From Cryomorphaceae bacterium (lineage in GTDB: Bacteria > Bacteroidota > Bacteroidia > Flavobacteriales > Schleiferiaceae): a stretch of 36,305 bases of DNA. Numbering within the stretch: position 1 is the first letter of the stretch; every line of letters begins with the position of its first letter. The notes under the pieces are model-generated. The model was not told the DNA's origin. It made no database searches and was given only the letters and a program-made list of their open reading frames with translations. Shown in pieces: positions 668 to 32,887 of the stretch. The stretch covers positions 1-36,305 of the forward strand of contig SKIJ01000147.1 in NCBI GenBank assembly GCA_007116495.1, read 5' to 3'. The position numbers were made by a program, and so were the translations under genes.

Positions 668-3600
668 TTAAACCACCTTCATGCCCAACTTGTGTTTCGC
701 AACGCTTAGCAGATAAAGCATCACGGGCACCATTACCAAGGTGAGGAACGTGGCAAAGGTAAGACCAAAAATTACCGTCCAAGCCATGGGCCCCCAGAAC
801 GCAGCGTTGTCGCCACCGAAGTAGATTTGTGGGTCGTATGCGCTGAAAAGGGTGAAGAAGTTGATGTTCATCCCAGTAGCCAGGGGAAGTAAGCCAAGTA
901 CAGTGGTGATGGCGGTTAGCAGTACCGGACGCAAGCGCTTTTCACCACCTTCAACAATGGCATCATAAATCTCAGAGATGCCAATGCGGTCATCCGGATC
1001 AAGTCCCAAATCTTGTTTGCGGCGTTTGATGAGTAGGTTGGTGTAATCGACCAATACAATGGCGTTGTTAACCACGATTCCCGCAAGGGAAATCACACCT
1101 ACGCTGGTGATGATAACGACGAAGTCCATGCCGCTAACAACCAAACCCAGCAATACGCCAATCAAACTCAACAATACTGAGGTCATAATGATGAAAGGGG
1201 TGGTGGCTGAGTTGAACTGCCCGACCATAATGAGGAATATTAAAAAGACGGCAATCAACAAAGCATTGATCAAAAAGGCTAATTCTTTGGCTTGATTCTC
1301 TTGTTCCCCGGTAAATTTAAAGGTCATATCGGGTGGTAACTCGTAGTCGCTCAGTCGTTCCTTTATGGCATTTACCGTTTCGGTAGGATTGTACCCTTCC
1401 AGCACGTTGGAGGAAATGGTAATTACACGATCTAAGTCTTTGCGATTGACAGCATTAAACGTAGAAGATGTTTTAACATCTGCTACAGCCGAAATAGGTA
1501 CTTGTTTTATTTGTCCGGTTCCGGCATCGCGGAAGGTAATTTTAGTATCCATCAGTCTGCTGAGATTGTAGCGATCGCGGTCTTGGAAGCGCAAATTGAT
1601 GGGGTAATCTTCTCGCACTTCTCTAAATGTTGAGACTTCTTTTCCAAACAACGCAGTTCGCATGGCATCGCCAATCTGGGCGGTAGACACACCCAATGCT
1701 CTGGCCTTGCGCCTATCGATGATGATGGGGAGTTCGGGTTTGCCCATTTGCACATCCAACTTGAGCTCTTCAACACCAGCGATTCCCGCAAGGTTGATGT
1801 ATCGCCTCAACGCCTCAGCTTCCACCAACATTTCTTCGTAGTCTTCGCCAATGAGTTCTATGTTAATGGGAGCGCCTGCGGGTGGGCCAACGGCATCTTT
1901 CGATACGCGTATTTGTGCGCCAGGGTAATCGCGTAAGGCGTTGCGGATATCTTCTAGAACTTGCGCTGTAGACACCCCACGTCGATCGGCATAGTCGACA
2001 AAAGATACTTCTACACGTGCTTTGTGAGGGGTAGGGGCGCTGCTTGCACCTTCATTGGGGTCAGAGGCACCCATACCTACTTGTGTAATGATGGAATTCA
2101 CCAAGAATGAGCGATAGGAATAGGCGACCTCGTTGGTGTCGATGTCGTCGTCGATGTATTCCGATAATAGATCTTTAATGCGCAGTTCGATATCGTAAGC
2201 AGCCCGGTTGCTCACTTCAATGTCTGTACCGATGGGTAATTCGACGTAAATGTCGGCTTTTTTGGGTGGATTGTCGGGGAAGAAAAGCGTATTTGGAGAA
2301 GCGACCTTTACGAGATACATGCTTAAGCCAAGGAGTACAAATGAGCCGACCAAGAAAACCACGGGGTTTTTACCTTTAAGGGCAAATGTCAACGTGTTTC
2401 GATAAACCTTCTCGAGTTTAGGTAAAAATACTTTTTGAAACCAATCGGTAGCAGGTGTGATGAAAAAGGTATTGATCGGTCGGAGTAGGGCGGCGAATAT
2501 CAAAAGATTTCCTGCCCAGTAAACACCCATTACGATGAATACAGAGCCAACTAAAATCATGGCAAGAGAAAAAATGAAGATGCGCTTGATGTTGGGTTTA
2601 TCTTCTTTGATTTTCATGTAAACCGACGTCAATACAGGGTTGATTACCAACGCTACAAAGAGCGATGACCCAAGAACAATCATCAAAGTAATGGGGAGGT
2701 ATTTCATAAACTCCCCAAAGATACCCGGCCATAGAGCCAACGGAACAAACGCGGCTAATGTAGTGGCCGTAGAGGCAATGATTGCCCAAGCCACTTCACC
2801 TACCCCTTGCTTTGCCGCCGCAATGGGATGCTTGCCTTCGTCCATTAGGCGGTAGATGTTTTCCACCACCACAATACCGTTATCTACAAGCATACCCAAG
2901 GCCAGTACCAGAGAAAACAACACGATGGTGTTTAGGGTAACACCAATGCTGCTGAGAATTAAGAACGATAACAGCATCGACAGCGGTATGGCAATCCCAA
3001 CAAATAGGGCATTGCGCAAACCGAGGAAGAACATGAGTACAACGATGACGAGTATCACCCCAAAAATGATGGAGTTTTCCAGTTCGTCGATCTGTGCTTT
3101 GCTCGAATCACTCTGATCGTTTGTGATGGAAATGTCGAGGTTTTCGGGGAGGTATTCCTCCTTTGCCTTGGCGAGAATGTCATTGATTTTTTCCGAAACA
3201 ATGATCAGATTTTCCCCGCTGCGTTTTTTGACGTCTAACATTACCACCGGGCGGAAAAATTCGCGGGCGTAGGATTCTTTTTCTACTTCGCCAAATGTGA
3301 TTTCAGCAATATCGCGGAGGTAAACGATGTCGCCACCCTCGTGCTTAACCACGATGTCGCCAATTTCATCCATGTTTGTGAAATCACCCGATATGCGAAC
3401 GTTTTTTCTGAAACCATCTATTAGGAGGTCGCCACCGGAGATGGAAAGGTTTTCACGCTGAATGGCATTTCCAATATCGTCGAAGCTCAGTTTTACAAGT
3501 TCCAACTCGCGTTGATTGATGGATATGCGAACTTCCTTTTGATCCATTCCGCGAATGTCTACTTCAGATATTTCTTGCAGTCCCTCAATTTTATCCTGTA

Positions 3601-4126
3601 AATACTCGGCGTAAAATTTGAGTTGCTCAGCCGAGAATTCTCCCGAGAGGTTGATGTTGAGAATGGGCACTAGCTCGGCAAAATTCAGGGCAAACACGTT
3701 TGGGTCTGCGGGAAGATCAGAGGGGAAGTCCGGGTCGCTTTTTGCGATATCCACCTTGTCCTTTACACGCTGCAAGGCTGTTTCGGGACTAACAGAAAAG
3801 TCGAACTTGACGCGAATGGAGCTGAAGCCTTGAATGGAGGATGAGGTGATTTCATCCAAACCACTAGCAGAATTAATTTCTTTTTCCAGTGGTCTGGTTA
3901 CGAGTTTTTCGATGTCGAGAGGCGCATTACCAGGATAGGGTGTGCTCACGTAAACCTCCGGTGCTACAATTTCCGGGAAGGCCTCCGACGGCATAGAGCG
4001 GTAAGCGAGAAGTCCGGCAAAGAAAATGATAACCGTCAATACAAAAACGGTGTTCTTATTTTCAATGGATTTGCTGGAGAGATTGAACTCTTTTTTAACC
4101 TCTTTGTCGAGTGTGTTGTCCTTCAT
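668..4126 (-). CDS. RND-family multidrug efflux permease (HAE1/AcrB type)
   Basis: Inner-membrane proton-driven pump subunit of a tripartite efflux system, 1152 aa against about 1050 for AcrB. An N-terminal transmembrane helix is followed by PGNAPLDIEKLVTRPLE, typical of the first periplasmic porter loop. The TM4 motif is GMLVDNGIVVVENIYR and the TM10 motif GIVVNNAIVLVDY. In AcrB the TM4 pair is Asp-Asp; here the second position is Asn, as I recall for many Bacteroidota members, so one proton-relay Asp is kept. Extra hydrophobic segments near residues 530-590 account for part of the added length. Its ATG lies one base after the adaptor stop codon, so the two are translationally close. It is the last gene of the tetR-tolC-adaptor-pump operon; its substrate cannot be read from sequence. 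Confidence 0.93.
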   Translation of the reverse strand: MKDNTLDKEVKKEFNLSSKSIENKNTVFVLTVIIFFAGLLAYRSMPSEAFPEIVAPEVYVSTPYPGNAPLDIEKLVTRPLEKEINSASGLDEITSSSIQGFSSIRVKFDFSVSPETALQRVKDKVDIAKSDPDFPSDLPADPNVFALNFAELVPILNINLSGEFSAEQLKFYAEYLQDKIEGLQEISEVDIRGMDQKEVRISINQRELELVKLSFDDIGNAIQRENLSISGGDLLIDGFRKNVRISGDFTNMDEIGDIVVKHEGGDIVYLRDIAEITFGEVEKESYAREFFRPVVMLDVKKRSGENLIIVSEKINDILAKAKEEYLPENLDISITNDQSDSSKAQIDELENSIIFGVILVIVVLMFFLGLRNALFVGIAIPLSMLLSFLILSSIGVTLNTIVLFSLVLALGMLVDNGIVVVENIYRLMDEGKHPIAAAKQGVGEVAWAIIASTATTLAAFVPLALWPGIFGEFMKYLPITLMIVLGSSLFVALVINPVLTSVYMKIKEDKPNIKRIFIFSLAMILVGSVFIVMGVYWAGNLLIFAALLRPINTFFITPATDWFQKVFLPKLEKVYRNTLTFALKGKNPVVFLVGSFVLLGLSMYLVKVASPNTLFFPDNPPKKADIYVELPIGTDIEVSNRAAYDIELRIKDLLSEYIDDDIDTNEVAYSYRSFLVNSIITQVGMGASDPNEGASSAPTPHKARVEVSFVDYADRRGVSTAQVLEDIRNALRDYPGAQIRVSKDAVGPPAGAPINIELIGEDYEEMLVEAEALRRYINLAGIAGVEELKLDVQMGKPELPIIIDRRKARALGVSTAQIGDAMRTALFGKEVSTFREVREDYPINLRFQDRDRYNLSRLMDTKITFRDAGTGQIKQVPISAVADVKTSSTFNAVNRKDLDRVITISSNVLEGYNPTETVNAIKERLSDYELPPDMTFKFTGEQENQAKELAFLINALLIAVFLIFLIMVGQFNSATTPFIIMTSVLLSLIGVLLGLVVSGMDFVVIITSVGVISLAGIVVNNAIVLVDYTNLLIKRRKQDLGLDPDDRIGISEIYDAIVEGGEKRLRPVLLTAITTVLGLLPLATGMNINFFTLFSAYDPQIYFGGDNAAFWGPMAWTVIFGLTFATFLTLVMVPVMLYLLSVAKHKLGMKVV

Positions 4127-4127
4127 A

Positions 4128-5285
4128 TCAATCGTTGTCGGAAATTTCTTCGGTGATGCGTACGCTCTGCCCGCTTTTAATGCTGCGCGAGCCCTTATCT
4201 ACGATGAGTTCGTTTGCGGTAATTCCTTCGATGATTTCGGTGCGCCCTTGGTAGGTCATTCCGGTAGTCACAAATCGTTGTTTTGCCTTAGAAATCATTT
4301 CTTCATCTTCAGAAAACTGAATGACGTATACAAAGTCTTTGCCTTCAGCATTTTGTTGAATAAGTCGGTTGGGAATGCTGATAGTGCTGTCTTGAGCATA
4401 GTCTAGAATATACACATTAGCCATCAAATTGGGCTTGAAGTACTCATTGGCATTTTCCAATCGAAACACCACTCTAAATGTTCGGTTGTTGGGGTTGATG
4501 ATATTGCCGGTTTGGTTTACGGTTGTGTATACAATTTCGTCTAATGATGGAAATTCTAGGCGTGCCTTACTGCCCTCGCGTATTTTGGTCACGTAGCGTT
4601 CGCTAACATCAGCATTGAGGTACACTTCTTTGAGGTTTACCAAGCGGAGCATGGGAGCTTGTGGTGAGGCAAGTTGTCCAATTTTAACGAAAATCTCGTC
4701 CACTTTACCGTCGAATGGGGCGGTAATTCTGGTCTGTTTGAATTGAGCACGCAGTGTTTCCAATCGTGACTCAAGATTCTCGACGTTGTTTTTGCTTTCT
4801 AAATATTGAAGCTCCGAACCAATTTTTTGATCCCATAGTCGTTTTTGTTTATCAAATACGGTTTTGGCAAAGCGCAGTTGTGTTTCCGCTTCTTTGATGT
4901 TGTTTTGAATGATGGAGCCATCCAATTCTACGAGTAATGTGCCTTTTTTCACATATTGGCCTTCGTTTACGCGAATGGAGGAAATGGTTCCTTGTGTTTC
5001 GGCGGTTATTTGTGCATTTTTATCGGCTTCTAGTGTTCCGTAAATTTCCACATAGTGTTCAAATTTACCAACCGAGCTTTTAAATGCTGTAACGGGAGTT
5101 TTAGATTTACCGCCACTCTGCGCCAACAAGTCGCGCTCTACGTCTTTGAGTAATTCTGTAAGAGAATCAATTTGCTGCGTAAGTTCGGTTTGACGTGCTT
5201 CGAGTTTGTCTTCAGGGATGTCTGTAGAAGAGTCACAAGCATATAAAAAGGCACTAACGACGGTGATTATAAGTAATCGATTCAT
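4128..5285 (-). CDS. RND periplasmic adaptor subunit (HlyD/MFP family lipoprotein)
   Basis: Periplasmic adaptor joining the RND pump to the TolC-like channel, 385 aa. The N-terminus has a short hydrophobic stretch ending in the lipobox LYAC (Cys17), so it should be a lipoprotein. A coiled coil (about residues 25-50) precedes the first lipoyl half with INEGQ-like VNEGQYVKKGTLLVELD. An alpha-helical hairpin follows (about 110-180), then the second lipoyl half with ITAPFDGKVDEIFVKIGQ, and beta-barrel and membrane-proximal parts ending in GLTANEL-type sequence (GITANELIVDKGS). It sits between tolC (9-bp gap) and the RND gene (1-bp gap), as usual for such operons. Confidence 0.92.
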   Translation of the reverse strand: MNRLLIITVVSAFLYACDSSTDIPEDKLEARQTELTQQIDSLTELLKDVERDLLAQSGGKSKTPVTAFKSSVGKFEHYVEIYGTLEADKNAQITAETQGTISSIRVNEGQYVKKGTLLVELDGSIIQNNIKEAETQLRFAKTVFDKQKRLWDQKIGSELQYLESKNNVENLESRLETLRAQFKQTRITAPFDGKVDEIFVKIGQLASPQAPMLRLVNLKEVYLNADVSERYVTKIREGSKARLEFPSLDEIVYTTVNQTGNIINPNNRTFRVVFRLENANEYFKPNLMANVYILDYAQDSTISIPNRLIQQNAEGKDFVYVIQFSEDEEMISKAKQRFVTTGMTYQGRTEIIEGITANELIVDKGSRSIKSGQSVRITEEISDND

Positions 5286-5294
5286 TGTTTGTAT

Positions 5295-6662
5295 TTAATA
5301 GGTGTTGTATTTGCCGATTAAGCGTTCCAGTTTTGCGCGCGCGCTAACGAGTTGTAAAAGTGCATTGATGTAGTTTCTTTCCGTTTCGAGAAACTGGTTT
5401 TCTGCCTGAGAAAGATCTAAGCTGCCACTGAGTCCTTCGCGGTATTTGACGCGGGTGTTTTCGAGGATTCTTTTCGCCAAATCGCGGTTTCGCTTGTTGG
5501 TCTGCATGCTCTTGATCGCTACGTTCAGGTCTCCCTTTGCTTGTTGGTAGTCAATGTGTGCTTGCTCTTCCACGCGCTTCTTGTTCATTTGAGCGCGATC
5601 GAGATCAATGCGTGCTTGTTGTGTGCGCGCATTCCTGCGCAGACCTGTGAAGATGTCCCACTGTAAGTTCAGTCCCAGTATGGAAAATGGAACCCAGGCG
5701 TTATCATCGGAAAAGTTGTTGAGGTTAAACAGGTTGAAATCGTCGGAAAAGTTGTTTCGGCTGTAGTTTAAGGAGCCACTAAGTTTTGGGAGATAACTCA
5801 TTTGCTCGTTGCGAAGAGCCAAATAGGCGGCTCTCTCAGATGTTTCAGCACTTCGATATGGAACATAGGTGTCTAAGTCAAAACGCGTCTCCAAAATTTC
5901 TCCGGCAAATTCATTCAGTTCGGTAAATGTATTGATGTCATCGGTTAGTGTAAGAGCCTCATTTTGCGGATAGCCGATGATGAGTTTCAGCGTCATCATT
6001 GCGATGCGACTCTGATTTTTTACGTCTTCAATGTTGTTCTCCAAGTTGGCAACGGTTATTTCCAACTGGTCAACGTCTTGCTCTTCCAAAAACCCTTCTT
6101 CAAAAAGTGAGCGGTTTTCTTTGAGGATTTTACGCGACGATTCAAGATTGTCTTCTAAAAGGGAAATAAGCTCTTTAGAGATTACAACATTGCCATACGC
6201 GTTGTATACCTGTTCGGTGATTTCGGTTTTACTTTCTTCCAAATCCAAACGAGAGATGTCTTTGAACACTCTACTTGCCATTAGCGCCACAAAATAGGAG
6301 CCGTCGAATATCAGTTGATTGAGGTTTGCTCGGTAAGACGATTGGTAGGGGACACCAAAAGCCAATAAAACAAACTCCCCTTCTGCTGCTGTAGGGTCAA
6401 TAAACTGAGCAGGAACCGGCTGCTGAGGAATGTCTATGTTGTAGTTCATTTCGGCACCAACGCCAATTTGCGGCAGTCCCGAAGCTGCGGTTTCTTTCAC
6501 CGTTTTTTTAGAAATTTCGTAATCAAACGCTTTGTTGCGAACAGAATAGCCATTCTCAACAGCGTAGTCAACTGCTTGCTGTAAGGTGAAGCCAACAGGT
6601 TGTGCAAAACCGGTAACCACGCTGGTTACGAGTAAAAGAGTTAGGTAGCGAATTGTGCGCAT
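5295..6662 (-). CDS. TolC-family outer membrane efflux channel
   Basis: Outer-membrane exit duct of the efflux system, 455 aa, close to the usual 430-480. A signal peptide (about 1-20, ending SVVTGFAQ) is followed by the first repeat with FTLQQAVDYAVENGYSVRNK. Long amphipathic helices follow, with a second repeat of the same kind near the C-terminus (VKYREGLSGSLDLSQAENQFLETERNYINALLQ, read as the conserved end motif). This duplicated coiled-coil and beta-strand layout is typical of OEP proteins. The ATG lies one base after the tetR stop codon, which indicates tight co-expression with the regulator. Confidence 0.92.
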   Translation of the reverse strand: MRTIRYLTLLLVTSVVTGFAQPVGFTLQQAVDYAVENGYSVRNKAFDYEISKKTVKETAASGLPQIGVGAEMNYNIDIPQQPVPAQFIDPTAAEGEFVLLAFGVPYQSSYRANLNQLIFDGSYFVALMASRVFKDISRLDLEESKTEITEQVYNAYGNVVISKELISLLEDNLESSRKILKENRSLFEEGFLEEQDVDQLEITVANLENNIEDVKNQSRIAMMTLKLIIGYPQNEALTLTDDINTFTELNEFAGEILETRFDLDTYVPYRSAETSERAAYLALRNEQMSYLPKLSGSLNYSRNNFSDDFNLFNLNNFSDDNAWVPFSILGLNLQWDIFTGLRRNARTQQARIDLDRAQMNKKRVEEQAHIDYQQAKGDLNVAIKSMQTNKRNRDLAKRILENTRVKYREGLSGSLDLSQAENQFLETERNYINALLQLVSARAKLERLIGKYNTY

Positions 6663-6663
6663 A

Positions 6664-7272
6664 TTATTCTTGGTACTTGTTTTTTAAGTGATCGCGTCCT
6701 TTGTCGGAAACAATGCCATGAAGGTGGTATAACAGTGCCTGTTTGCGAAGACGTCTCTTATCTAAATCGGGTTTCCAAAAAAAGTCGTCGTTCATAATCA
6801 TATTGGCTTGCCCCAGATATAAGCGTGCAATGACTTGTGCATCAAAGTCATTGCGGTACACCCCTTCTTTCATGCCTCGTTCAAGGTTTTCAACTGTCAT
6901 ATTCACCATCTCAGTACGCTTGATGTTCTCAAGATGACTGTACGTTTCCGGATAATACTTTTTGAGTTGAAATAACATCCGCTCGTGTGTGGTGGTAAAA
7001 TATTCCTGCATGGCGTCGTCCATAGCAAATAATTCGTCAATCGGATTGCTGGCCTTGTCGTGTATGCTCTTGGTAAAACACGCCACCTCTTCCGTCATGC
7101 GCATGATGCCTTCGTGTACGAGTGTGCTTTTGTTTTCAAAGTGACGATAAATGGTCTTTTTGGAAATCCCCAATTCACTGGCTATTTGATCCATAGACAC
7201 AGATCGAAGACCAAATTGAAGGTACAACGACATTGCTTTTTCGAGAATGGTTTCGCGTTGATTGTGTGACAC
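6664..7272 (-). CDS. TetR/AcrR-family regulator, first gene of the efflux operon
   Basis: DNA-binding repressor of 202 aa. The N-terminal helix-turn-helix reads VSMDQIASELGISKKTIYRHFENKS, typical of TetR proteins; the C-terminal two thirds is helical and should bind a ligand and dimerise. I chose the GTG at 7270-7272. A frame reaching up to a TTG at 7299 overlaps the predicted -7 box (7297-7304), so it cannot be translated from that promoter. The GTG also lies exactly 24 bases past the -7 box, the same distance as in the related TonB receptor promoter. The operator-like element 7320-7352 implies autoregulation. The same element upstream of the receptor at 21942 suggests a second target. Confidence 0.9.
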   Translation of the reverse strand: MSHNQRETILEKAMSLYLQFGLRSVSMDQIASELGISKKTIYRHFENKSTLVHEGIMRMTEEVACFTKSIHDKASNPIDELFAMDDAMQEYFTTTHERMLFQLKKYYPETYSHLENIKRTEMVNMTVENLERGMKEGVYRNDFDAQVIARLYLGQANMIMNDDFFWKPDLDKRRLRKQALLYHLHGIVSDKGRDHLKNKYQE

Positions 7273-7296: not shown

Positions 7297-7352
7297 CAAA
7301 AATATATGTAGAGAACCTACGGAAACGAAAGTTGTTCCGTTAGTTTCCTTAA
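7297..7352 (-). promoter_or_regulatory. tetR operon promoter with shared TetR-like operator
   Basis: Read on the minus strand, 7352-7320 is TTAA GGAAACT A ACGGAACAA CTT TCGTTTCCG, then 15 bases, then the -7 box TATTTTTG (7304-7297). The element has arms GGAAAC and GTTTCC plus an inner CGGAA/TTCCG pair. A TTTC inside GTTTCC lies 17 bases before the -7 box and may serve as a poor -33 element, so bound regulator would block polymerase. Aligned with 21861-21894 it matches at 29 of 33 positions with one gap. Confidence 0.7.
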
Positions 7353-7391: not shown

Positions 7392-7424
7392 AAAAGGCCA
7401 CACTCTTTGTGAATGTGGCCTTTT
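7392..7424 (-). terminator. intrinsic terminator of rpsT (works on both strands)
   Basis: Arms AAAAGGCCACA (7392-7402) and TGTGGCCTTTT (7414-7424) are perfectly complementary around an 11-base loop. On the minus strand an A-run precedes it and TTTTGTTTTT follows. It closes the tRNA-Glu/rpsT unit and separates it from tetR. Confidence 0.85.
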
Positions 7425-21860: not shown

Positions 21861-21917
21861 TTAACGGAAACTTACGGAACAATAATCGTTTCCGCGGGTC
21901 TTATGTACATATTTTTG
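21861..21917 (+). promoter_or_regulatory. TonB receptor promoter with the same operator as tetR
   Basis: The element 21861-21894 reads TTAACGGAAACT T ACGGAACAA TAA TCGTTTCCG, with 7-bp arms CGGAAAC and GTTTCCG. It is followed by 15 bases and the -7 box TATTTTTG (21910-21917); the ATG comes 24 bases after. The tetR promoter has the same element, -7 box and both spacings. Confidence 0.7.
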
Positions 21918-21941: not shown

Positions 21942-24317
21942 ATGCGATTACTACCTCATATTTTCCTGATGTTTTTCCCATTGCTGATTACAGCTCAAAA
22001 GGTCGTTATCAGCGGAGAAATCACCGATGCTGCCAACGGCGAATCGCTTATTGGTGTTAATGTTTACGCAGAAGGAACCCAGATGGGGACTGCGTCCAAT
22101 GCGTATGGGTTTTATTCTTTGCGATTGGATCCGGGTGAATACACCATTATTTATCAATATTTGGGGTATGATGTGCAACGCAAAAAGGTCAACATTAAAA
22201 AGGACTTAGAGATTGACGTGGTGCTCAAGGAAGAGGGACAAGCACTCGATGCCGTTGAGGTTACCACAAGAGGCGTTGATGCCAATGTAAAAAGTGTGGA
22301 AATGAGCGTTACGGAGGTGACCACTAAAGAGATTGAAAAAGTACCGCAGCTGCTCGGCGAGGTGGATGTTATTCGTACGCTTACCCTGCTTCCGGGTGTG
22401 TCAACGGTGGGAGAAGGGGCAAATGGATTCAATGTACGAGGAGGTAATGTTGATCAAAACCTGATTTTGTTAGATGGTGCTCCGGTATTTAATTCATCCC
22501 ATTTGTTCGGTTTTTTCTCGGTGTTTAATGCTGATGCCGTACAGTCGTTTAAATTATACAAGGGTGGCATTCCTGCATTTTACGGTGGTCGATTGTCTTC
22601 GGTGCTCGATGTGCGACAACGCGAGGGAAACAGCAAGCGGTTCAGTGGTCAAGGAGGATTGGGGCTTTTGTCCAGCAGGTTAACGCTCGAGGGCCCAATC
22701 GTTAAGGATAAGTTGAGTTTTTTGGTATCCGGTCGTCGTTCGTACGGCGATGTGTTTACGGCGTTTTCTCCCGACGAAGCGATTAATTCCAGTATTCTTT
22801 ATTTTTACGATTTTAACACAAAAATCAATTACCGCATCAACAAAAAACACCGCGTATACCTTTCGGGCTATTTTGGTCGTGACGCTTTGGGAATTCGCGA
22901 TTTCGTGAACTTTAATTGGGGAAACGCCACCGCTACAGTACGATGGAATTGGACCATCAACAATCGTATGTTTAGTAATCTAACGGCGGTTTACAGCGAT
23001 TACGATTACACCATTGGATCGGGTGATACCGATAATCCAGATGACGGAGGATTTGGGTTTACATTGGATTCACGCTTGCGCAACTATAAACTTGAACAAA
23101 AATTTACTTGGTTTGCCTCATCTGATTATCAATTGGACTTCGGATACGATGCAACGTTTTACGATATTTTGCCGGGGCGATCAACCTTCAACGACGGAAG
23201 CAGTGTGACGCAGACCACGTTGCAAAGCGAATACGGACTAGAGCCATCGCTGTTTGTGAGCGCGGAGCAGAAAGTCAATGCCAATCTCACTCTACAGTAC
23301 GGCATTCGCTACAGTTCGTTCTATAATTTTGGTCCTCGTACGATTCAGTTGTACGACGGTATTCCTTCAGATGAGAATGTTATTGGAGTAGAGGAGTTTG
23401 CAAGAGGAGAAGTTGTGCAGTCGTATACGGGGCTTCAAGGTATTGAACCACGCTTCAGTGCTAATTACTCCATCGACGATTACCAATCGGTAAAAGCCAG
23501 CTTTAACCGAACACGCCAGTACATCCAATTGGTTTCCAATACAACATCGCCTACTCCGGTCGATATTTGGCGACCTGCCGGCCGCTACATTGAACCGGCA
23601 ACCGCCAACCAAGTTGCTGGAGGATACTTCCGCAACTTCAACGATAACACTTGGGAGTTTTCGGCTGAATTATTCTATAAGTATTTTTATGACATTATTG
23701 ACTACCGCGATGGTGCAGAATTATTCGTGAATGATAACATTGAAACAGCATTGCTCTCCGGGGAAGCGCGTGCATACGGGATGGAATTGCTTATTCGCAA
23801 GCAGAGAGGTAAATTACAAGGATGGATCGGATATACGCAATCCAGAGCTGAGCTAATTGTACGTGGTGATGATCCTTTCACCAGCATCAGTAACGGTGAG
23901 TGGTATCCATCAAATTGGGATCGTTTGCACGATTTATCGGTGGTGGTTTCTTACGAAATATCCGAAAAATGGGACGTTGGAGGTAGCTTTATATACCAAA
24001 CCGGACGCCCGGTAACGTTCCCCGTAGGGCGTGCCGAAGTTGAAGGTTTGGTGGTGCCGGTCAACTCAGAGCGAAACTCCAGTCGCATTCCCGATTTTCA
24101 CCGCTTAGATCTCAATGCCAATTACAATCCATCTGCTGGTAAAAATAAACGTTGGGAATCGTCGTGGTCGTTTGGTCTGTTTAACGTGTACGCTCGTCGA
24201 AATCCATTTTCTGTGTTTTTCCAAAACGACCCCCAAAATCCACAGGTCAATCAAGCCATACGCTTGGCTATTTTTGGAACCATTATCCCTTCTGTTACTT
24301 ACAACTTTAAATTTTAG
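21942..24317 (+). CDS. TonB-dependent outer membrane receptor with N-terminal carboxypeptidase-like domain
   Basis: Outer-membrane importer of 791 aa. A signal peptide (about 1-19, ending LLITAQ) leads into a CarboxypepD_reg-like domain with GEITDAANGESLIGVNVY and GTASNAYGFYSLRL (about 20-105). The plug domain has GFNVRGGNVDQNLILLDGAPVFNSSHLFGFFS and KGGIPAFYGGRLSSVLDV, and the rest is a 22-strand-type barrel ending in an aromatic residue (YNFKF). I chose the ATG at 21942, which puts a signal peptide at the N-terminus and matches promoter spacing; 67 upstream in-frame codons cross the operator. No SusD gene follows; instead a DUF4249 lipoprotein starts 2 bases later, a common pairing in Bacteroidota. 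Ligand unknown. Confidence 0.92.
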   Translation: MRLLPHIFLMFFPLLITAQKVVISGEITDAANGESLIGVNVYAEGTQMGTASNAYGFYSLRLDPGEYTIIYQYLGYDVQRKKVNIKKDLEIDVVLKEEGQALDAVEVTTRGVDANVKSVEMSVTEVTTKEIEKVPQLLGEVDVIRTLTLLPGVSTVGEGANGFNVRGGNVDQNLILLDGAPVFNSSHLFGFFSVFNADAVQSFKLYKGGIPAFYGGRLSSVLDVRQREGNSKRFSGQGGLGLLSSRLTLEGPIVKDKLSFLVSGRRSYGDVFTAFSPDEAINSSILYFYDFNTKINYRINKKHRVYLSGYFGRDALGIRDFVNFNWGNATATVRWNWTINNRMFSNLTAVYSDYDYTIGSGDTDNPDDGGFGFTLDSRLRNYKLEQKFTWFASSDYQLDFGYDATFYDILPGRSTFNDGSSVTQTTLQSEYGLEPSLFVSAEQKVNANLTLQYGIRYSSFYNFGPRTIQLYDGIPSDENVIGVEEFARGEVVQSYTGLQGIEPRFSANYSIDDYQSVKASFNRTRQYIQLVSNTTSPTPVDIWRPAGRYIEPATANQVAGGYFRNFNDNTWEFSAELFYKYFYDIIDYRDGAELFVNDNIETALLSGEARAYGMELLIRKQRGKLQGWIGYTQSRAELIVRGDDPFTSISNGEWYPSNWDRLHDLSVVVSYEISEKWDVGGSFIYQTGRPVTFPVGRAEVEGLVVPVNSERNSSRIPDFHRLDLNANYNPSAGKNKRWESSWSFGLFNVYARRNPFSVFFQNDPQNPQVNQAIRLAIFGTIIPSVTYNFKF

Positions 24318-24319
24318 TC

Positions 24320-25165
24320 ATGCGAATCGTCAATCTACTTTTACCTGCGCTGTTGAGCGTTTTTCTTATCTCGTGTGAAGACCCCATAGATGTAGAACTT
24401 GAAGAGGGGCCTGTGCAATTGGTTGTGGATGGTGAGGTTACCACGATCATTCCGGTGCGGGTTCGTTTGTCTACCACAGCTGCGTACTTCAATACAGCTG
24501 CTACCCCGGTGGTGTCAAACGCCAGTGTTCGGTTGTTGGAAGATGGCAATACGGTAGATGTGTTGATTGAAAACGATACCGTGCCGGGACAGTACATAGG
24601 GAGCTATGTTGGAGAAGTGGGGAAAACATACCAAATAGAAATTGATATACCCGATGGAGAGGCCTTCGAGGCAAGTACTTGGAAAAGTCGGCCGGAAACA
24701 TTGCGGCCTATTTTTGAATTGGATAGTATTTACACGACGTTATTTCAGCAGCCACCGCTACCCTTTGGTAACTACTTAAACTTTCGCGTGCAATCTGATT
24801 TTGTGTTTCCGCAAAATACAGCCTATCGCATACGCCGAAAACTCAACGACAGTCTCTTTTTTCAGGACTTTTTATTTGCAAATACGCTCGAAGATTTGTT
24901 GAGCTTTCAGTTTCGCCCCGTTATAAATAGTTTGCTAGACTCGGGTGATGTTGTGGATTTACAGTTTAGTTCATTGTCTTTGCGCTACCGGGAGTTTCTC
25001 CAAGTGTTGGCCGAGCAAATCAATCCAGGAGGACTATTCGCTCCACCGCCAGCCCCCATTCGCGGAAACGTTCAAGAGCAGGGCGGAGACGAGCGCGTTG
25101 CTTTGGGGTATTTTAATGCTTCGGCCTTACTGCGCGTGCGGTATATTGAGACGGAAGATAGTTGA
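24320..25165 (+). CDS. DUF4249 lipoprotein, partner of the TonB receptor
   Basis: A 281-aa lipoprotein with a signal peptide ending in FLISC (Cys19), followed by EDPIDVELEEGPVQLVVDGEVTT, the start I associate with DUF4249 proteins. An Ig-like beta segment (about 40-105) with ASVRLLEDG and YIGSYVGEVGKTYQIEI follows. The C-terminal part has LSLRYREFLQVLAEQINPGG and NVQEQGGDERVALGYF, family-typical positions. It starts 2 bases after the receptor stop and will be co-transcribed. By analogy with SusD/SusC it may sit at the cell surface and help capture the receptor's ligand; the family's function is not established. Confidence 0.85.
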   Translation: MRIVNLLLPALLSVFLISCEDPIDVELEEGPVQLVVDGEVTTIIPVRVRLSTTAAYFNTAATPVVSNASVRLLEDGNTVDVLIENDTVPGQYIGSYVGEVGKTYQIEIDIPDGEAFEASTWKSRPETLRPIFELDSIYTTLFQQPPLPFGNYLNFRVQSDFVFPQNTAYRIRRKLNDSLFFQDFLFANTLEDLLSFQFRPVINSLLDSGDVVDLQFSSLSLRYREFLQVLAEQINPGGLFAPPPAPIRGNVQEQGGDERVALGYFNASALLRVRYIETEDS

Positions 25166-26420: not shown

Positions 26421-27332
26421 ATGGTAACTAAGTATTCAATAAAGGATCTCGAACACCTTTCGGGCATTAAAGCACATACCTTGCGTATGTGGGAGCAGCG
26501 CTATGGCGTTATTGAACCGCATCGAACAGACACCAACATTCGTTATTATCTAGATGAGGACTTGAAGAGGCTTCTGAATATCTCCATTCTGGTGAAGCAC
26601 GGCATTAGGATTAGCAAGGTAAGCAAAATGTCGTCTAAAGAAATGCACGAGAAGGTTTTAGAGCTTTCTTCGTATAAAGGCGATTATGATTCGCAAATCA
26701 ACAGCTTAAAGGTAGCCATGCTCGACTTCGATCAGGAGTTGTTTGAAAAGGTATTGAATACAGCAATTTTTCAAATGGGAGCTGAAGAGGCGTTTAAAAA
26801 CATCATTGGCTCTTTTATTTGTGAAATGGGCGTGTTGTGGCAAACCAATGCCATCAATGTTGCGCACGAGCATTTTATATCTAATCTCATTCGCCAAAAG
26901 CTCTTTTCAGCCATCGATCAGCTTATGGTTAGTAGCAATACCAACGAAGAGGTGTTTGTTCTATACTTACCCGACCAAGAAATGCATGAGTTGAGTTTGC
27001 TTTATCTCTACTATTATCTTCGAAAAAATGGCCGTAAAGTCATATATTTAGGTCAGTCCGTGCCGCATCATTATCTGTACTCTGTGTTTAAGACCACCGG
27101 AGCACGTAATTTTATCTCTATTTTTACCACGAGGCCGTTTAGTGAGGAAATTCGTGATTATTACAAAGATCTTGACGAATTATTCGGAAAAGAAGATTGT
27201 TGGTTTCACTTTACGGGTTTTCAAACGAGGGAAGAAACATACGTTTCTGATACCGATGAGGATCGTTTTCGTTTTTTTGCCAACGTGGAAGCCCTCAAGA
27301 ACACCGTTTTGCATAGAGAAGCCGAAGCCTAA
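26421..27332 (+). CDS. CarH/LitR-like MerR regulator with B12-binding-type C-terminus
   Basis: A 303-aa regulator. Residues 4-70 form a MerR winged helix (YSIKDLEHLSGIKAHTLRMWEQRYG). The middle has the cobalamin-cap motif W-x9-EH: Trp140, Glu150, His151. The next domain has E-M-H at 187-189, matching ExH with the lower-axial His of CarH. Known in the family: AdoB12 bound in the dark makes a DNA-binding tetramer that light breaks. Here three features are weaker: the Gly of ExHxxG is Ser192, the SxL motif reads SIF, and the GG near the end is TG. The residue after the cap Trp, His in Thermus CarH, is Gln141. Context (crt genes, sigma factor, photolyase) supports light control. Confidence 0.83.
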   Translation: MVTKYSIKDLEHLSGIKAHTLRMWEQRYGVIEPHRTDTNIRYYLDEDLKRLLNISILVKHGIRISKVSKMSSKEMHEKVLELSSYKGDYDSQINSLKVAMLDFDQELFEKVLNTAIFQMGAEEAFKNIIGSFICEMGVLWQTNAINVAHEHFISNLIRQKLFSAIDQLMVSSNTNEEVFVLYLPDQEMHELSLLYLYYYLRKNGRKVIYLGQSVPHHYLYSVFKTTGARNFISIFTTRPFSEEIRDYYKDLDELFGKEDCWFHFTGFQTREETYVSDTDEDRFRFFANVEALKNTVLHREAEA

Positions 27333-27724
27333 ACCACCCATTCCTTTACAGCGTCTGTCTTTAACGTATGCTGACGTCGCTATTGCAGTCCTACCGAAGA
27401 TTTTAAGGCTCTGCTAAAATCTTGTCATTCATCTAGATTCACTAGCGTGTATGACACGTCTTTTTATTGCGCAATGGTTCTATATCGTATTACTGCTGGC
27501 TAACGTCTTAATGTTTTATCGAATGATTTCTGTGTAATCTCAGTATTCTTGTCCAGCACCTATATTTGTTCCGTTATTTGTTATTCGGTAGCTGCATGTA
27601 AAATGTCATGAATACTGGGTTTAAGGATGAATCTGTTCTTTAGCGCAACGTTTGTGTTTACTCCGTAGAGATCTGCCATGTTAAGCGTTCGAAAAAAGCA
27701 TAAATAAGTACGATAAGGTGTTTG
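27333..27724. other. 392-bp intergenic stretch before the SulP gene
   Basis: It contains a 9-bp inverted repeat AAGATTTTA-N9-TAAAATCTT (27397-27423), a smaller repeat CGTGT-ATG-ACACG (27446-27458), and a TATATTTG box (27561-27568) overlapping TTGTTCCGTTA (27566-27576). A 28-codon frame (27451-27537) would encode a hydrophobic peptide. None is firmly a gene; the stretch looks regulatory. Confidence 0.45.
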
Positions 27725-29254
27725 ATGCGTATGCGAGAAACCATCCGTCATATAAAAAGCGATTTACCGGCGTCAGTCGTCGTATTCTTTGTGGCACTTC
27801 CACTTTGTTTAGGGATTGCCATGGCCTCTGGGGCGCCATTGTTTTCCGGAATCATTGCGGGAGTTGTTGGCGGTGTTGTAGTTGGAGCGTTAAGTGGCTC
27901 GCCATTGGGAGTTAGTGGTCCTGCTGCCGGTTTAACGGTTGTGGTGCTCGATGCTACGGTGTCCTTGGGGTCTTGGGAGTCGTTATTGCTCGCTGTAGTG
28001 TTGGCGGGATTGCTGCAAATTTTAATGGGCTATCTCAAACTTGGCATTATTGGCTACTACTTTCCGTCATCGGTCATAAAAGGAATGCTCACAGGTATAG
28101 GTCTGGTCATTATTATAAAGCAAATACCACAAGCTTTAGGCTACGAGCCAGACGCAATGGTCTCAATGGCGCAGCGCGACGGTTTATCCACCATTGCTGC
28201 GTTTGAGGGGTTCGTTTCTTCGATTACTCCGGCGGCAGTGATTAGCACTATTGTTGGGCTGGTAATTTTAATTGTATGGGACGTTTATCTTACGCGCTTC
28301 AATGTGTTCCGCTTTATTCAGGGACCTATGGTAACGGTATTTTCCGGTATATTGCTCTACACGTACTTGCCTGTATACACCCCGTATTCATTTTCCGAGG
28401 GTCAGGTTGTTCGTATCCCTGAATTCAGCGGGATTAGGGATTTTTTTTCCAGTCTTTCTCAGCCATCCTTTTCAACTGATCTGCTCTTTAATTCTAACTT
28501 ATACCTTGTCGCTGTAGTGATTGCTGTTGTGGCCAGTTTGGAAACGCTTTTGTGTGCTGAGGCTACGGATAAGCTCGATCCACTTAAGCGGACAACTCCA
28601 ACCAATCGGGAATTAAAGGCCCAGGGTGTAGGTAATGTTGTGTCTGGTCTTTTCGGTGGACTACCTGTTACGCAGGTTATCGTTCGTAGTTCGGCTAATA
28701 TTTCATTTGGCGGTAAAACCAAAGCATCGACCATTATGCACGGGGTGTTTTTACTACTTTGTGTACTTACCGTTCCGCATGTTCTCAATCTCATACCCCT
28801 TTCTTCTTTGGCGGCAATATTGTTTGTGGTGGGGTATAAGTTGGCAAAACCGTCGCTTTTTAAAATCATGTATAAGAGCGGAACGGAACAGTTTGTTCCG
28901 TTTATTGCCACCATCATAGGAATATTGATTACCGATCTGTTGAACGGAATTGCCATCGGTATGGCGGTAGGAGTATTTTACATATTGAGAAATAATTACA
29001 AGAACCCCTATGTCTTTGATAAAGTTGAGCACGAAGAGGAAGGGGTCTATACCATTGTTTTATCAGAAGAGGTGAGCTTCCTCAACAAGGGACGTATATT
29101 GTCTTATCTTAATTCCATACCAGATAACGCTTCGGTTAGCATCGATATTCGAAGGGCTCGATACATTGATTACGATGTGCAGGAGATAATCAGTGACTTT
29201 GCAAGCAGCGCTAAAGAACGTAACATCAATGTAAACATTCTATCGGAAAAGTAA
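27725..29254 (+). CDS. SulP-family anion transporter with STAS domain
   Basis: Inner-membrane anion carrier or exchanger of 509 aa. The N-terminal sequence DLPASVVVFFVALPLCLGIAMASGA, the SGPAAGLTVVV loop and SLETLLCAEATDKLDP are family hallmarks, as is GGLPVTQVIVRSSANI. About 11-14 transmembrane segments fill residues 15-415; a short STAS domain (about 430-509) ends the protein with VSIDIRRARYIDYDVQEIISDFA. Members carry sulfate, bicarbonate or other anions, and the substrate cannot be told here. I use the ATG at 27725; a TTG precedes it directly. It lies between the MerR regulator and the sigma factor, so it may belong to the light regulon. Confidence 0.9.
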   Translation: MRMRETIRHIKSDLPASVVVFFVALPLCLGIAMASGAPLFSGIIAGVVGGVVVGALSGSPLGVSGPAAGLTVVVLDATVSLGSWESLLLAVVLAGLLQILMGYLKLGIIGYYFPSSVIKGMLTGIGLVIIIKQIPQALGYEPDAMVSMAQRDGLSTIAAFEGFVSSITPAAVISTIVGLVILIVWDVYLTRFNVFRFIQGPMVTVFSGILLYTYLPVYTPYSFSEGQVVRIPEFSGIRDFFSSLSQPSFSTDLLFNSNLYLVAVVIAVVASLETLLCAEATDKLDPLKRTTPTNRELKAQGVGNVVSGLFGGLPVTQVIVRSSANISFGGKTKASTIMHGVFLLLCVLTVPHVLNLIPLSSLAAILFVVGYKLAKPSLFKIMYKSGTEQFVPFIATIIGILITDLLNGIAIGMAVGVFYILRNNYKNPYVFDKVEHEEEGVYTIVLSEEVSFLNKGRILSYLNSIPDNASVSIDIRRARYIDYDVQEIISDFASSAKERNINVNILSEK

Positions 29255-29381
29255 CTTACACACGCTGTTTCACAGGTTACTTATTTGAAATTCAACACAT
29301 TAATGGTTTAGGTTAATCATTCAGGTATTTTTGTTATACTTTTTAATAAAATATTTAAACAAAAATGCGTTTCGTATGGGT

Positions 29382-29419
29382 TTTTTGTTTACCTTTGTGG
29401 AGTAACAATTAAACAAAAA
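29382..29419 (+). promoter_or_regulatory. sigma-factor promoter within an inverted repeat
   Basis: Perfect 10-bp arms TTTTTGTTTA (29382-29391) and TAAACAAAAA (29410-29419) are 18 bases apart and enclose the -7 box TACCTTTG (29390-29397). The ATG at 29429 follows 9 bases after the right arm. The core TTGTTTA-N18-TAAACAA has the same half-site and spacing as the MerR palindrome (TTGTTTA-N18-TGAACAA). Confidence 0.5.
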
Positions 29420-29428
29420 CACATCACT

Positions 29429-29935
29429 ATGTCAACTGCAGAATTTGGAAACATGATCAGCACTCACCAACAATTTCTACAAACCTTGGCGCTTAAGCTA
29501 ACCAAGAGTGGTGATGATGCAAATGATTTGATGCAAGAAACCTTCTTTAAGGCCATCAAAAACCGCGAAAAGTATCAGGAAGGTACCAATATTAAAGGTT
29601 GGTTGTACACCATCATGAAAAATACCTTCATCAATAACTACCGTAAAAAGAAAAATCAAAATACGTTTGTTGACGAAACAGAGAATAAGTATTTTATCAA
29701 TAGTAGGCAAGCGGAAAAAGATGTGCGCACCGACCGATTGGTTGACCAGTCTTATCTTATGCGTCAGCTCGAAACAGTAGATCGTACATACCTCGATACC
29801 TTTATGATGCACTATAATGGTTATAAATATGAGGAAATCGCCGAAATTTTAGACATTCCTTTGGGAACTGTGAAAAGTCGCATCTTCCTTGCACGTAGAA
29901 AAATGATGGAAAAGTTGCAGGACTACCGATATTAG
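29429..29935 (+). CDS. ECF-type RNA polymerase sigma factor
   Basis: A 168-aa sigma-70 family factor of the extracytoplasmic-function size class. Region 2 is visible as ANDLMQETFFKAIKNREKY and NIKGWLYTIMKNTFINNYRKKK (about 30-80); region 4 is YKYEEIAEILDIPLGTVKSRIFLARRKM (about 130-160), with a proper helix-turn-helix. No anti-sigma factor gene adjoins it. It lies 65 bp before crtI, in the same direction, and downstream of a CarH-like regulator, so it probably drives carotenoid and photoprotection genes as CarQ does in Myxococcus; here control by an anti-sigma factor seems replaced by control of its own promoter (inference). Confidence 0.9.
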   Translation: MSTAEFGNMISTHQQFLQTLALKLTKSGDDANDLMQETFFKAIKNREKYQEGTNIKGWLYTIMKNTFINNYRKKKNQNTFVDETENKYFINSRQAEKDVRTDRLVDQSYLMRQLETVDRTYLDTFMMHYNGYKYEEIAEILDIPLGTVKSRIFLARRKMMEKLQDYRY

Positions 29936-30000
29936 TCGGAAAAATCATTTATATTTACCACACAACCCAGCACTGATTTTTTGCTGAACACTATACAATC

Positions 30001-31503
30001 ATGAATGCATCACACGCTGTCGTAATCGGTGGTGGCTTTGCCGGTCTCTCTACCGCCATAAATCTTGCCCACAAAGGAATAAGCGTCACGCTCTTGGAGA
30101 AGAATGACCATGTCGGAGGGCGTGCAAGAATATGGGAATCCAAAGGCTTTACATTTGATATGGGTCCGAGTTGGTACTGGATGCCTGATGTTTTTGAAGA
30201 CTTTTTTGGTCGATTTGGAAAAAAAGTTTCTGACTACTATGAGTTGCATCGACTGGATCCCGGTTATGATGTGTTTTTCCCGGATGATGAAAGAGTCTCT
30301 GTTGATGCTTCAATGGAACGGCTGAAGGCGTGGATGGAGAAGCTTGAGCCCGGTAGTTTTGCCAAGCTTACTAAATTTTTAGATGAAGCCGAGTACAAGT
30401 ACAAGGTAGGTATCAACGATCTTGTCTACAAACCGTCTCGCTCTATCACTGAATTTATAGATATTAGGTTGCTAAAGGGCTTAATACGTATGGACGTGTT
30501 TAGTTCTATGCGCAATCATGTCAATACATATTTTACGCACCCCTACCTTCGTCAGTTGATGGAATTTCCGATCCTCTTTTTAGGTGCGGTACCGTCCAAT
30601 ACACCCGCTCTATACTCCTTGATGAATTATGCCGATTTAAAATTGGGAACTTGGTATCCCAAGGGTGGTATGTATTCGGTTGTGCGAGCCATGGAATCAC
30701 TAGCCATTGAAAAAGGTGTGACCATTAGATGTAATGCTGAAGTTACTGGATTTACCTACGATGGCAAATCAATTAATGGTGTGTGTGTAGGTGAAGAGAT
30801 TTTAGATGCCGACGTGGTTGTTGCCGGTGCAGACTATCATCACGTCGATCGACAATTGTTGCCGGAAGATAAATCAAATTATTCTGAGCGTTATTGGGAC
30901 AAGCGCAAACTGGCACCATCTAGTCTGTTGTTTTACATTGGTATAGATAAAAAAATTGAAAACATGGAGCATCATTCGCTTTATTTTGATGCCCCATTCG
31001 ACCAACATGCTGATGCCATCTACACCAACCCCAGATGGCCCGAAACACCTTTATATTACGTGTCAAATACGTCCAAAACCGATCCAAATGCGGCTCCGAA
31101 GGGATGCGAGGCCTTGACCTTTTTAATACCTTTAGCTCCTAATCTGGAGGATTCGGAAGACATGAGAGAACAATATTTTCACAAAATAATGGATCGGTTT
31201 GAAGCTACCATGGGTCAGAATATTCGCGATCATATCGTGTTAAAACGGTCGTATGCAATGAACGATTTTGTCAACGACTACCATGCGTACAAAGGAAATG
31301 CTTACGGATTGGCGAATACCTTAGATCAAACTGCGATATTGAAACCTGGCCTGAAAAATAAACACCTTAAAAATTTGTATTATACCGGACAGCTAACCGT
31401 GCCGGGACCCGGTGTTCCGCCGTCAATTATTTCAGGAATTGTTGTCGCTGAAGAGATTAGCAAGGATTTTAAAACCTTGAAGAAAAAGCCGCAGACAGTT
31501 TAA
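30001..31503 (+). CDS. crtI: phytoene desaturase (CrtI family)
   Basis: FAD-dependent desaturase that converts phytoene towards lycopene, 500 aa, normal for the family. The N-terminal dinucleotide-binding site reads VVIGGGFAGLSTAINLAHKG, followed by LLEKNDHVGGRARIWESKGFTFDMGPSWYWMPD. The C-terminus has the CrtI signature YYTGQLTVPGPGVPPSIISGIVVAEEI. It is the first gene of crtI-crtB-idi, with 19 bp to crtB. The leader (29936-30000) has no strong -7 box, so transcription may come from the sigma-factor promoter or from an ECF-type promoter that I cannot recognise. Confidence 0.95.
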   Translation: MNASHAVVIGGGFAGLSTAINLAHKGISVTLLEKNDHVGGRARIWESKGFTFDMGPSWYWMPDVFEDFFGRFGKKVSDYYELHRLDPGYDVFFPDDERVSVDASMERLKAWMEKLEPGSFAKLTKFLDEAEYKYKVGINDLVYKPSRSITEFIDIRLLKGLIRMDVFSSMRNHVNTYFTHPYLRQLMEFPILFLGAVPSNTPALYSLMNYADLKLGTWYPKGGMYSVVRAMESLAIEKGVTIRCNAEVTGFTYDGKSINGVCVGEEILDADVVVAGADYHHVDRQLLPEDKSNYSERYWDKRKLAPSSLLFYIGIDKKIENMEHHSLYFDAPFDQHADAIYTNPRWPETPLYYVSNTSKTDPNAAPKGCEALTFLIPLAPNLEDSEDMREQYFHKIMDRFEATMGQNIRDHIVLKRSYAMNDFVNDYHAYKGNAYGLANTLDQTAILKPGLKNKHLKNLYYTGQLTVPGPGVPPSIISGIVVAEEISKDFKTLKKKPQTV

Positions 31504-31522
31504 CAAGACACACCTCGCTACC

Positions 31523-32359
31523 ATGATTGAATTATACGACAAAGTCAGCAAAAAAGCCGGTAAGATGATTACCAATGCGTACTCGACTTCCTTTTCGTTG
31601 GGCATCTATTGTCTTGACCGAAAGTACCATGAAGGCATCTACGCCATCTACGGGTTTGTTCGTGTGGCCGACGAGATAGTTGATACCTTTCACGGTTATC
31701 CAAAGGCAGATCTGCTCGACGAATTTGAGCGCGACACCTTTCAGGCTATTGAGCGTAAAATCAGCACCAATCCCACGCTGCACGCCTTTCAATGGGCGGT
31801 GAATACGTATAACATCGATCACGAAAACATTCGTGCTTTTCTTAAAAGTATGCGCATGGATTTGACGCAAAACGATCACGACCTTGCCAGTTACGAAGAC
31901 TATATTCTCGGTTCGGCGGAGGTGGTCGGACTGATGTGTCTGCGCGTATTCCTCGATGGCGACGATAAGCGCTACCACGAATTGAAAGAGTCTGCCATGA
32001 AGCTGGGAAGCGCCTTTCAAAAAATTAATTTCTTACGCGATCTGCATGCCGACTATTACCAGCTTGGCAGAGTGTATTTCCCAGGTGTTGATATGAATGA
32101 ATTCAATGCCGAAACCAAAAAGGCCATTGAAGCCGATATCGATATCGATTTTAAAGCAGGCTTTGAGGGTATCAAACAATTGCCGCGTGGTGTGCGCTTT
32201 GGCGTCTACGTAGCGTATGTGTACTACTATGCTTTGTTTCAGCGTATTCGCGGCTTGGAGCCCAGCGTTATTCTCGAGCAGCGCGTTCGCATACCCAACC
32301 GAAAAAAATACAGACTCCTTCTGAGTTCATACTTCCGTCACAGTTTTAATATCCTTTAA
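31523..32359 (+). CDS. crtB: phytoene synthase
   Basis: Condenses two geranylgeranyl diphosphates to phytoene, the first committed carotenoid step; 278 aa. Both Asp-rich substrate motifs are present: VRVADEIVDTF (DxxxD, about residues 49-55) and FLRDLHADYYQLGRVYFP (DxxxD, about 170-185). The start YSTSFSLGIYCLDRKYHEGIYAIYGFVR is typical of the squalene/phytoene synthase fold. It ends 9 bp before idi. The gene order crtI-crtB is the usual Flavobacteriia arrangement. Confidence 0.95.
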   Translation: MIELYDKVSKKAGKMITNAYSTSFSLGIYCLDRKYHEGIYAIYGFVRVADEIVDTFHGYPKADLLDEFERDTFQAIERKISTNPTLHAFQWAVNTYNIDHENIRAFLKSMRMDLTQNDHDLASYEDYILGSAEVVGLMCLRVFLDGDDKRYHELKESAMKLGSAFQKINFLRDLHADYYQLGRVYFPGVDMNEFNAETKKAIEADIDIDFKAGFEGIKQLPRGVRFGVYVAYVYYYALFQRIRGLEPSVILEQRVRIPNRKKYRLLLSSYFRHSFNIL

Positions 32360-32368
32360 ACAACACAC

Positions 32369-32887
32369 ATGTCCGAATACGTTATCCTGGTCAATGAGCG
32401 CGACGAGCAGCTCGGACTGATGGAGAAAATCGAAGCCCACGAAAAAGGCCTTCTTCATCGCGCCTTTAGTGTTTTTGTCATCAATTCCGATGGTGAATTA
32501 CTTCTTCAAAAACGTGCTTCTCACAAGTATCACAGCGGAGGGCTGTGGTCCAATACGTGCTGTTCACATCCACGAGATGGTGAAGATATAGAAGACGCTG
32601 CTCACAGAAGAATGCAAGAAGAAATAGGCTACGACTGTCACCTTGAGAAACTCTTTACATTTATCTATAAGGCGGACTTCGACAACAATATGACCGAACA
32701 CGAATACGACCATGTATTCGTTGGTTACGACAACCAAAATCCTGTGCCCAATCCAGATGAAGTCGAAGATTACAAGTGGATGTCTTTGGATGATGTAAAA
32801 CGCGATATAAGCGAAAAACCTGAGCGCTACACGGCCTGGTTTATCATTGTATTTGAACGCTTTTACAAAACCGTACTTACGCGTTAA
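32369..32887 (+). CDS. idi: isopentenyl-diphosphate delta-isomerase, type 1
   Basis: Interconverts isopentenyl and dimethylallyl diphosphate, supplying the starter unit for carotenoids; 172 aa. A Nudix fold is seen with HEKGLLHRAFSVFVIN, the active-site Cys in WSNTCCSHPRDGE and the helix RRMQEEIGYDC. Metal-binding His and Glu positions appear in LLHRAF and TEHEYDHVF; Trp in YTAWFIIVFERFY fits the family end. It is the last gene of the crt unit; a 187-bp gap follows. Its place here instead of a cyclase or hydroxylase gene is unusual, so later carotenoid steps must be coded elsewhere. Confidence 0.93.
   Translation: MSEYVILVNERDEQLGLMEKIEAHEKGLLHRAFSVFVINSDGELLLQKRASHKYHSGGLWSNTCCSHPRDGEDIEDAAHRRMQEEIGYDCHLEKLFTFIYKADFDNNMTEHEYDHVFVGYDNQNPVPNPDEVEDYKWMSLDDVKRDISEKPERYTAWFIIVFERFYKTVLTR

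Follow-up and report, generated by a model that had tools for sequence, protein, structure and literature searches.

The window, i.e. the complete stretch of 36,305 nucleotides analysed here from a Cryomorphaceae bacterium (contig SKIJ01000147.1), harbours two operons lying 14.5 kb apart, both of which are preceded by a 28-bp palindrome and a -7 box (Table 1). The first operon contains the gene of a TetR-family repressor followed by genes for a TolC-family protein, a periplasmic adaptor and an RND permease, all in one orientation, which is the arrangement of a tripartite RND efflux operon. The second operon encodes a TonB-dependent receptor and a DUF4249 lipoprotein.

Table 1. Position of genes and regulatory elements of the pump and importer operons in the window.
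Feature	Position	Strand	Remarks
RND efflux permease, multidrug-type	668..4126	minus	best NCBIfam subfamily match below its cut-off
RND periplasmic adaptor subunit (MFP)	4128..5285	minus	TIGR01730; lipoprotein-type signal by direct reading
TolC-family outer membrane efflux protein	5295..6662	minus	
tetR, TetR-family repressor	6664..7272	minus	PF00440; GTG start; first pump operon gene
-7 box TATTTTTG, tetR promoter	7297..7304	minus	16 bp from operator
Operator at tetR promoter	7348-7321	minus	28 bp, GGAAAC-N16-GTTTCC; GGAAACTAACGGAACAACTTTCGTTTCC
Intrinsic-terminator-like hairpin after rpsT	7392..7424	minus	between tetR promoter and upstream transcription
Operator at TonB receptor promoter	21866-21893	plus	28 bp, GGAAAC-N16-GTTTCC; GGAAACTTACGGAACAATAATCGTTTCC
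-7 box TATTTTTG, receptor promoter	21910..21917	plus	16 bp from operator
TonB-dependent receptor	21942..24317	plus	CarboxypepD_reg + Plug; 791 aa
DUF4249 lipoprotein	24320..25165	plus	Pfam DUF4249, E=7.7e-20

The N-terminus of the repressor revealed a TetR_N helix-turn-helix (PF00440, E=3.1e-13, 49.7 bits compared to a cut-off of 24). Its AlphaFold model (pLDDT 88) is all-helical and shows the classical TetR fold with a C-terminal ligand/dimer domain. The Foldseek matches listed for this model were TetR-type regulators, SmeT, NalD and QacR among them, with TM values of about 0.5-0.73. The recognition region SKKT.Y was invariant in the 20 TetR proteins of the family that were compared, and tolC adjoins tetR at those loci of the family and of the order that were inspected. 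For the tetR open reading frame, the program had listed a TTG start at 7299. Because this codon sits inside the -7 box of the gene's own promoter it was ruled out, and the GTG at 7272 is probably the true start.

The receptor gene and the DUF4249 gene are separated by only 2 bp, so that the lipoprotein is the immediate neighbour of the receptor. The predicted model of the DUF4249 protein (pLDDT 88) consists of tandem immunoglobulin/fibronectin-like beta domains, and its fold matches were cytokine-receptor folds with TM values of about 0.3, which reflect a generic beta-sandwich likeness. In line with a published DUF4249-transporter link (PMC11003636), the protein probably serves the receptor as a lid or as a partner. 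A SusC/SusD uptake pair was considered and rejected, as the receptor reached only 80 bits with TIGR04056 (cut-off 368) and its partner is a DUF4249 protein, not SusD. Sequence and fold searches of the PDB yielded no function for either the receptor or the DUF4249 protein. Elsewhere in the window (26421-32887), a gene for a CarH/LitR-like MerR-B12-binding regulator was found close to carotenoid genes of the crtI-crtB-idi type and to a sigma factor gene, suggesting light or B12 control of these pigment genes.

The sequence-only reading of this DNA had described the two promoters as alike in operator, spacing and start codon distance, and its coordinates and letters were confirmed. Including TTAA/TTAAC and the final G, the two elements can be aligned with a single gap, 29 of 33 positions being identical, and both possess the inverted arms GGAAAC/GTTTCC. 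At each promoter, exactly 15 bases separate GTTTCCG from TATTTTTG, and 24 bases separate TATTTTTG from the start codon (GTG 7272 and ATG 21942, respectively). Since TATTTTTG conforms to TAnnTTTG, the ordinary -7 box of Bacteroidota at positions -12 to -5 (PMC9723704), finding it at both promoters does not by itself indicate copying. From the position of this box and the transcription start thus predicted (PMC9723704), the operators span about -56 to -29, with the right arm (about -34 to -29) covering the -33 region. The palindromes themselves are far from expected by chance: GGAAAC-N14..20-GTTTCC occurs twice in the window where 0.04 occurrences are expected, and two were reached in none of 100 shuffled sequences. 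The genome scan that had been proposed, carried out with a 29-bp pattern allowing up to three mismatches, returned only the two operators in the 2,334,581 bases (2.33 Mb) of the assembly, which is 94% complete; the reversed pattern gave no match.

A comparison with related genomes, many of them draft assemblies, had also been suggested. The element was detected at the tetR and receptor promoters of all five genomes of the genus. The extended pattern TTTAANGGAAACN6AACN5TMGTTTCCN3GGT (up to three mismatches) matched exactly ten times in these genomes, once at tetR and once at the receptor gene in each, and the control pattern did not match at all. Occurrence at many unrelated genes, which would have spoken against a dedicated operator, is thereby refuted, as each genus genome holds two sites at only these two operons. 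By reading, each of the five receptor promoters has 16 bp between operator and -7 box. Within these promoters the arms are invariant. Identity is 65% in the inner 16 bp and 36% in the DNA upstream, both figures having been obtained without one pair of very close genomes. The operons are 27 kb apart in one other genome of the genus (G098) and lie on separate contigs in the remaining ones, and the genes around them differ in every genome. Linkage was therefore rejected as the cause of the joint retention of both sites.

Of the 88 family genomes searched, 80 contain a tetR homologue. A perfect palindrome directly upstream of tetR, i.e. the operator at its own promoter that is expected of a TetR regulator, was present in 41 of them. 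Other families of the order carry GGAAAC-N15..17-GTTTC before tetR-tolC. Because the palindrome is kept upstream of tetR across family and order, it is the putative autoregulatory operator of the adjacent TetR order-wide. At the receptor gene, the perfect palindrome is restricted within the family to the five genus genomes; 25 other receptor promoters of the family that were fetched lacked the operator. Recruitment of the receptor operon into the TetR regulon probably dates back to the genus ancestor. Six additional perfect palindromes in six family genomes were all located inside open reading frames and were rejected as candidate sites.

The pairing of pump and receptor was encountered again in a distant order of Bacteroidota. 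A receptor search of named genomes yielded 80 Bacteroidota loci, and among the 79 promoters examined, five exact palindromes and one near version were found at the right place, most promoters being without a site. In genomes with a palindromic receptor promoter, the tetR-tolC promoter has the palindrome too. The operator of the distant order has a lineage-specific form, about GGAAACTTGCAAGAC-N4-AAAGTTTCC. It ends one base before TAGTTTTG, compared to 16 in the window, and spans about -41 to -14. A scan with this operator matched in 83 of 87 genomes, compared to a single control match in all of them. Both the tetR-tolC and the receptor promoter bear the operator in 37 of the 87 genomes, i.e. 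in G334-G338 and in 32 further genomes that were found by fetching the sites from genomes with several matches. Wherever the contig permitted a check, the regulated receptor gene was followed by a DUF4249 gene. The regulated receptors of this order match the receptor in the window at 44-46%, compared to 35-38% for the paralogue of the latter (G000:C88). When the presence of the operator is mapped on a tree of 122 receptors, exactly two changes are needed, each imposed by branches with good support, and the TetR tree consists of two clades split by lineage. Hence, the link was either made twice, or it is ancestral and has been lost in many lines; the differing operator-to-promoter distances would favour separate wiring.

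Some genomes of the distant order contain further sites. Two genomes possess an additional tetR-tolC operon (L314, G699:C4; L335, G716:C68) that likewise carries an operator of this type, and the two TetR copies form their own branch. Additional operator-plus-TAGTTTTG-like sites were noted at L364 (G746:C9), L362 (G741:C32), L350 (G727:C8), L297/L298 (G689:C1), L366 (G746:C115) and L368 (G757:C64). Judged by eye from the translations, they precede genes for an ABC exporter-like protein, a START-domain-like protein, an AraC-like regulator and a secreted protein, the last of these genes lying upstream of a recF-like one. These sites may be local additions to the regulon or may have arisen by chance.

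Taken together, it is very likely that both elements are operators of one TetR protein (7272-6664) that represses both operons, and that one inducer releases both. The proposed control of the receptor-DUF4249 operon by the same TetR thus gains support from the genome scan, the comparison of relatives and the pairing in the second lineage, and for a case built on sequence the confidence in direct control of the receptor operon is high. Counting against it, the link to the receptor is not universal, as seen from the 25 family promoters and from most of the 79 named promoters, and the inner 16 bp of the two operators do not co-vary significantly within genomes. It is conceivable that a different protein, a second TetR-type regulator or another one, recognizes the palindrome and controls tetR and the receptor gene while the adjacent TetR is not the binder. 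The genome does encode further weak TetR candidates, but the palindrome stays with tetR in the order and in the distant order and occurs nowhere else in most genomes. Moreover, one homologue with an E value below 1e-15 is listed per matching family genome, and TetR repressors usually regulate their own promoters. A different binder is accordingly improbable.

The two elements had also been called copies of one operator-promoter module, and literal copying is a possible origin of the receptor promoter. If the receptor promoter were a recombined copy of the tetR promoter, the likeness might stem from duplication and not from selection for shared control. This would agree with the equal orientation and spacing and with the asymmetric flanks (TTTAA on the left, GG on the right) that both promoters have in common in the same orientation; such flanks are compatible with copying of a module and with a wider footprint. 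On the other hand, the arms remained invariant in the five genus genomes despite the divergence of the upstream DNA, which implies selection, and the inner 16 bp of the two operators resemble each other no more closely within a genome than between genomes, their co-variation being not significant (30 of 120 permutations reached the observed value). Duplication is compatible with control by one TetR as the origin of the second site but fails as a replacement for it, and in that role it is very improbable. A general promoter or structural motif, or a chance likeness atop the common TAnnTTTG box (PMC9723704), can practically be dismissed, given the excess of palindromes in the window, the restriction to two operons in the genus and the location of the other perfect family copies inside genes.

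Under control of both operons by one TetR, the repressor would bind the operator as one dimer or as two, cover the -33 region and block the housekeeping RNA polymerase. Two dimers are considered because of the operator length of 28 bp; QacR-type regulators bind long operators as two dimers. Repression by polymerase blocking would fit the operator positions in the window (about -56 to -29) and in the distant order (about -41 to -14). Autorepression would hold the tetR-tolC-adaptor-RND operon low, and the same TetR would act in trans to hold the receptor-DUF4249 importer low. A small molecule entering the TetR pocket would free both operons, and pump and importer would rise together. We infer both the blocking of polymerase and the sense of the regulation; some members of the TetR family are activators. 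As pump and receptor are also paired in the distant order, there with a different spacing between operator and promoter, a single physiological signal or compound probably links the pump to receptors of this type. The pairing hints at a shared compound that pump and importer might handle or answer to. A conserved export-retrieval circuit, in which one repressor and operator jointly switch on an RND exporter and a TonB receptor-DUF4249 importer that both handle one compound or a complex of it, the circuit having been wired twice in evolution, is a tentative and rather doubtful extension.

The repressor shares the TetR fold with the regulators of the AcrR-AcrAB, NalD-MexAB-OprM and SmeT-SmeDEF systems, of which NalD and SmeT belong to the structural matches. 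Like autoregulated TetR/AcrR-type repressors of RND pumps, it heads a tolC-adaptor-RND operon and has a palindrome in its own promoter. Unlike in the AcrR, NalD and SmeT systems, the operator sequence is the Bacteroidota group's own and the repressor probably acts in trans on a TonB receptor-DUF4249 operon as well. AcrR resembles the repressor mainly in the DNA-binding domain, and the match to the AcrR model was far below its cut-off. The likeness to QacR concerns the length of the 28-bp palindrome, the TetR fold and the Foldseek match. For the importer, BT2172-BT2173 of Bacteroides thetaiotaomicron is comparable by gene pairing, as a receptor gene adjoins a DUF4249 gene there as well. A study of lids for TonB transporters has proposed that BT2173 cooperates with the adjacent transporter; the accessible part of that study names no regulator for the pair (PMC11003636). 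In the same species, the BT2792-2795 RND pump is part of a bile-salt efflux iModulon, being expressed jointly with further operons in response to a small molecule. For this iModulon, the accessible part of the report mentions neither a TonB receptor-DUF4249 member nor a shared operator (PMC12596196). A description of the operator or regulon was not found in the open-access literature, subscription papers and preprints lying outside the search.

What is unusual about this otherwise ordinary regulator is its probable, conserved second target. Pairs of a TonB receptor and a DUF4249 protein occur widely among Bacteroidota, and the searchable literature yielded no substrate for them. The proposed regulon ties one orthologous group of these pairs to a specific efflux pump in two distant lineages. 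The ligand releasing TetR is a candidate for the compound that importer and pump handle, and the operator sequence can be used to find further targets in draft genomes.
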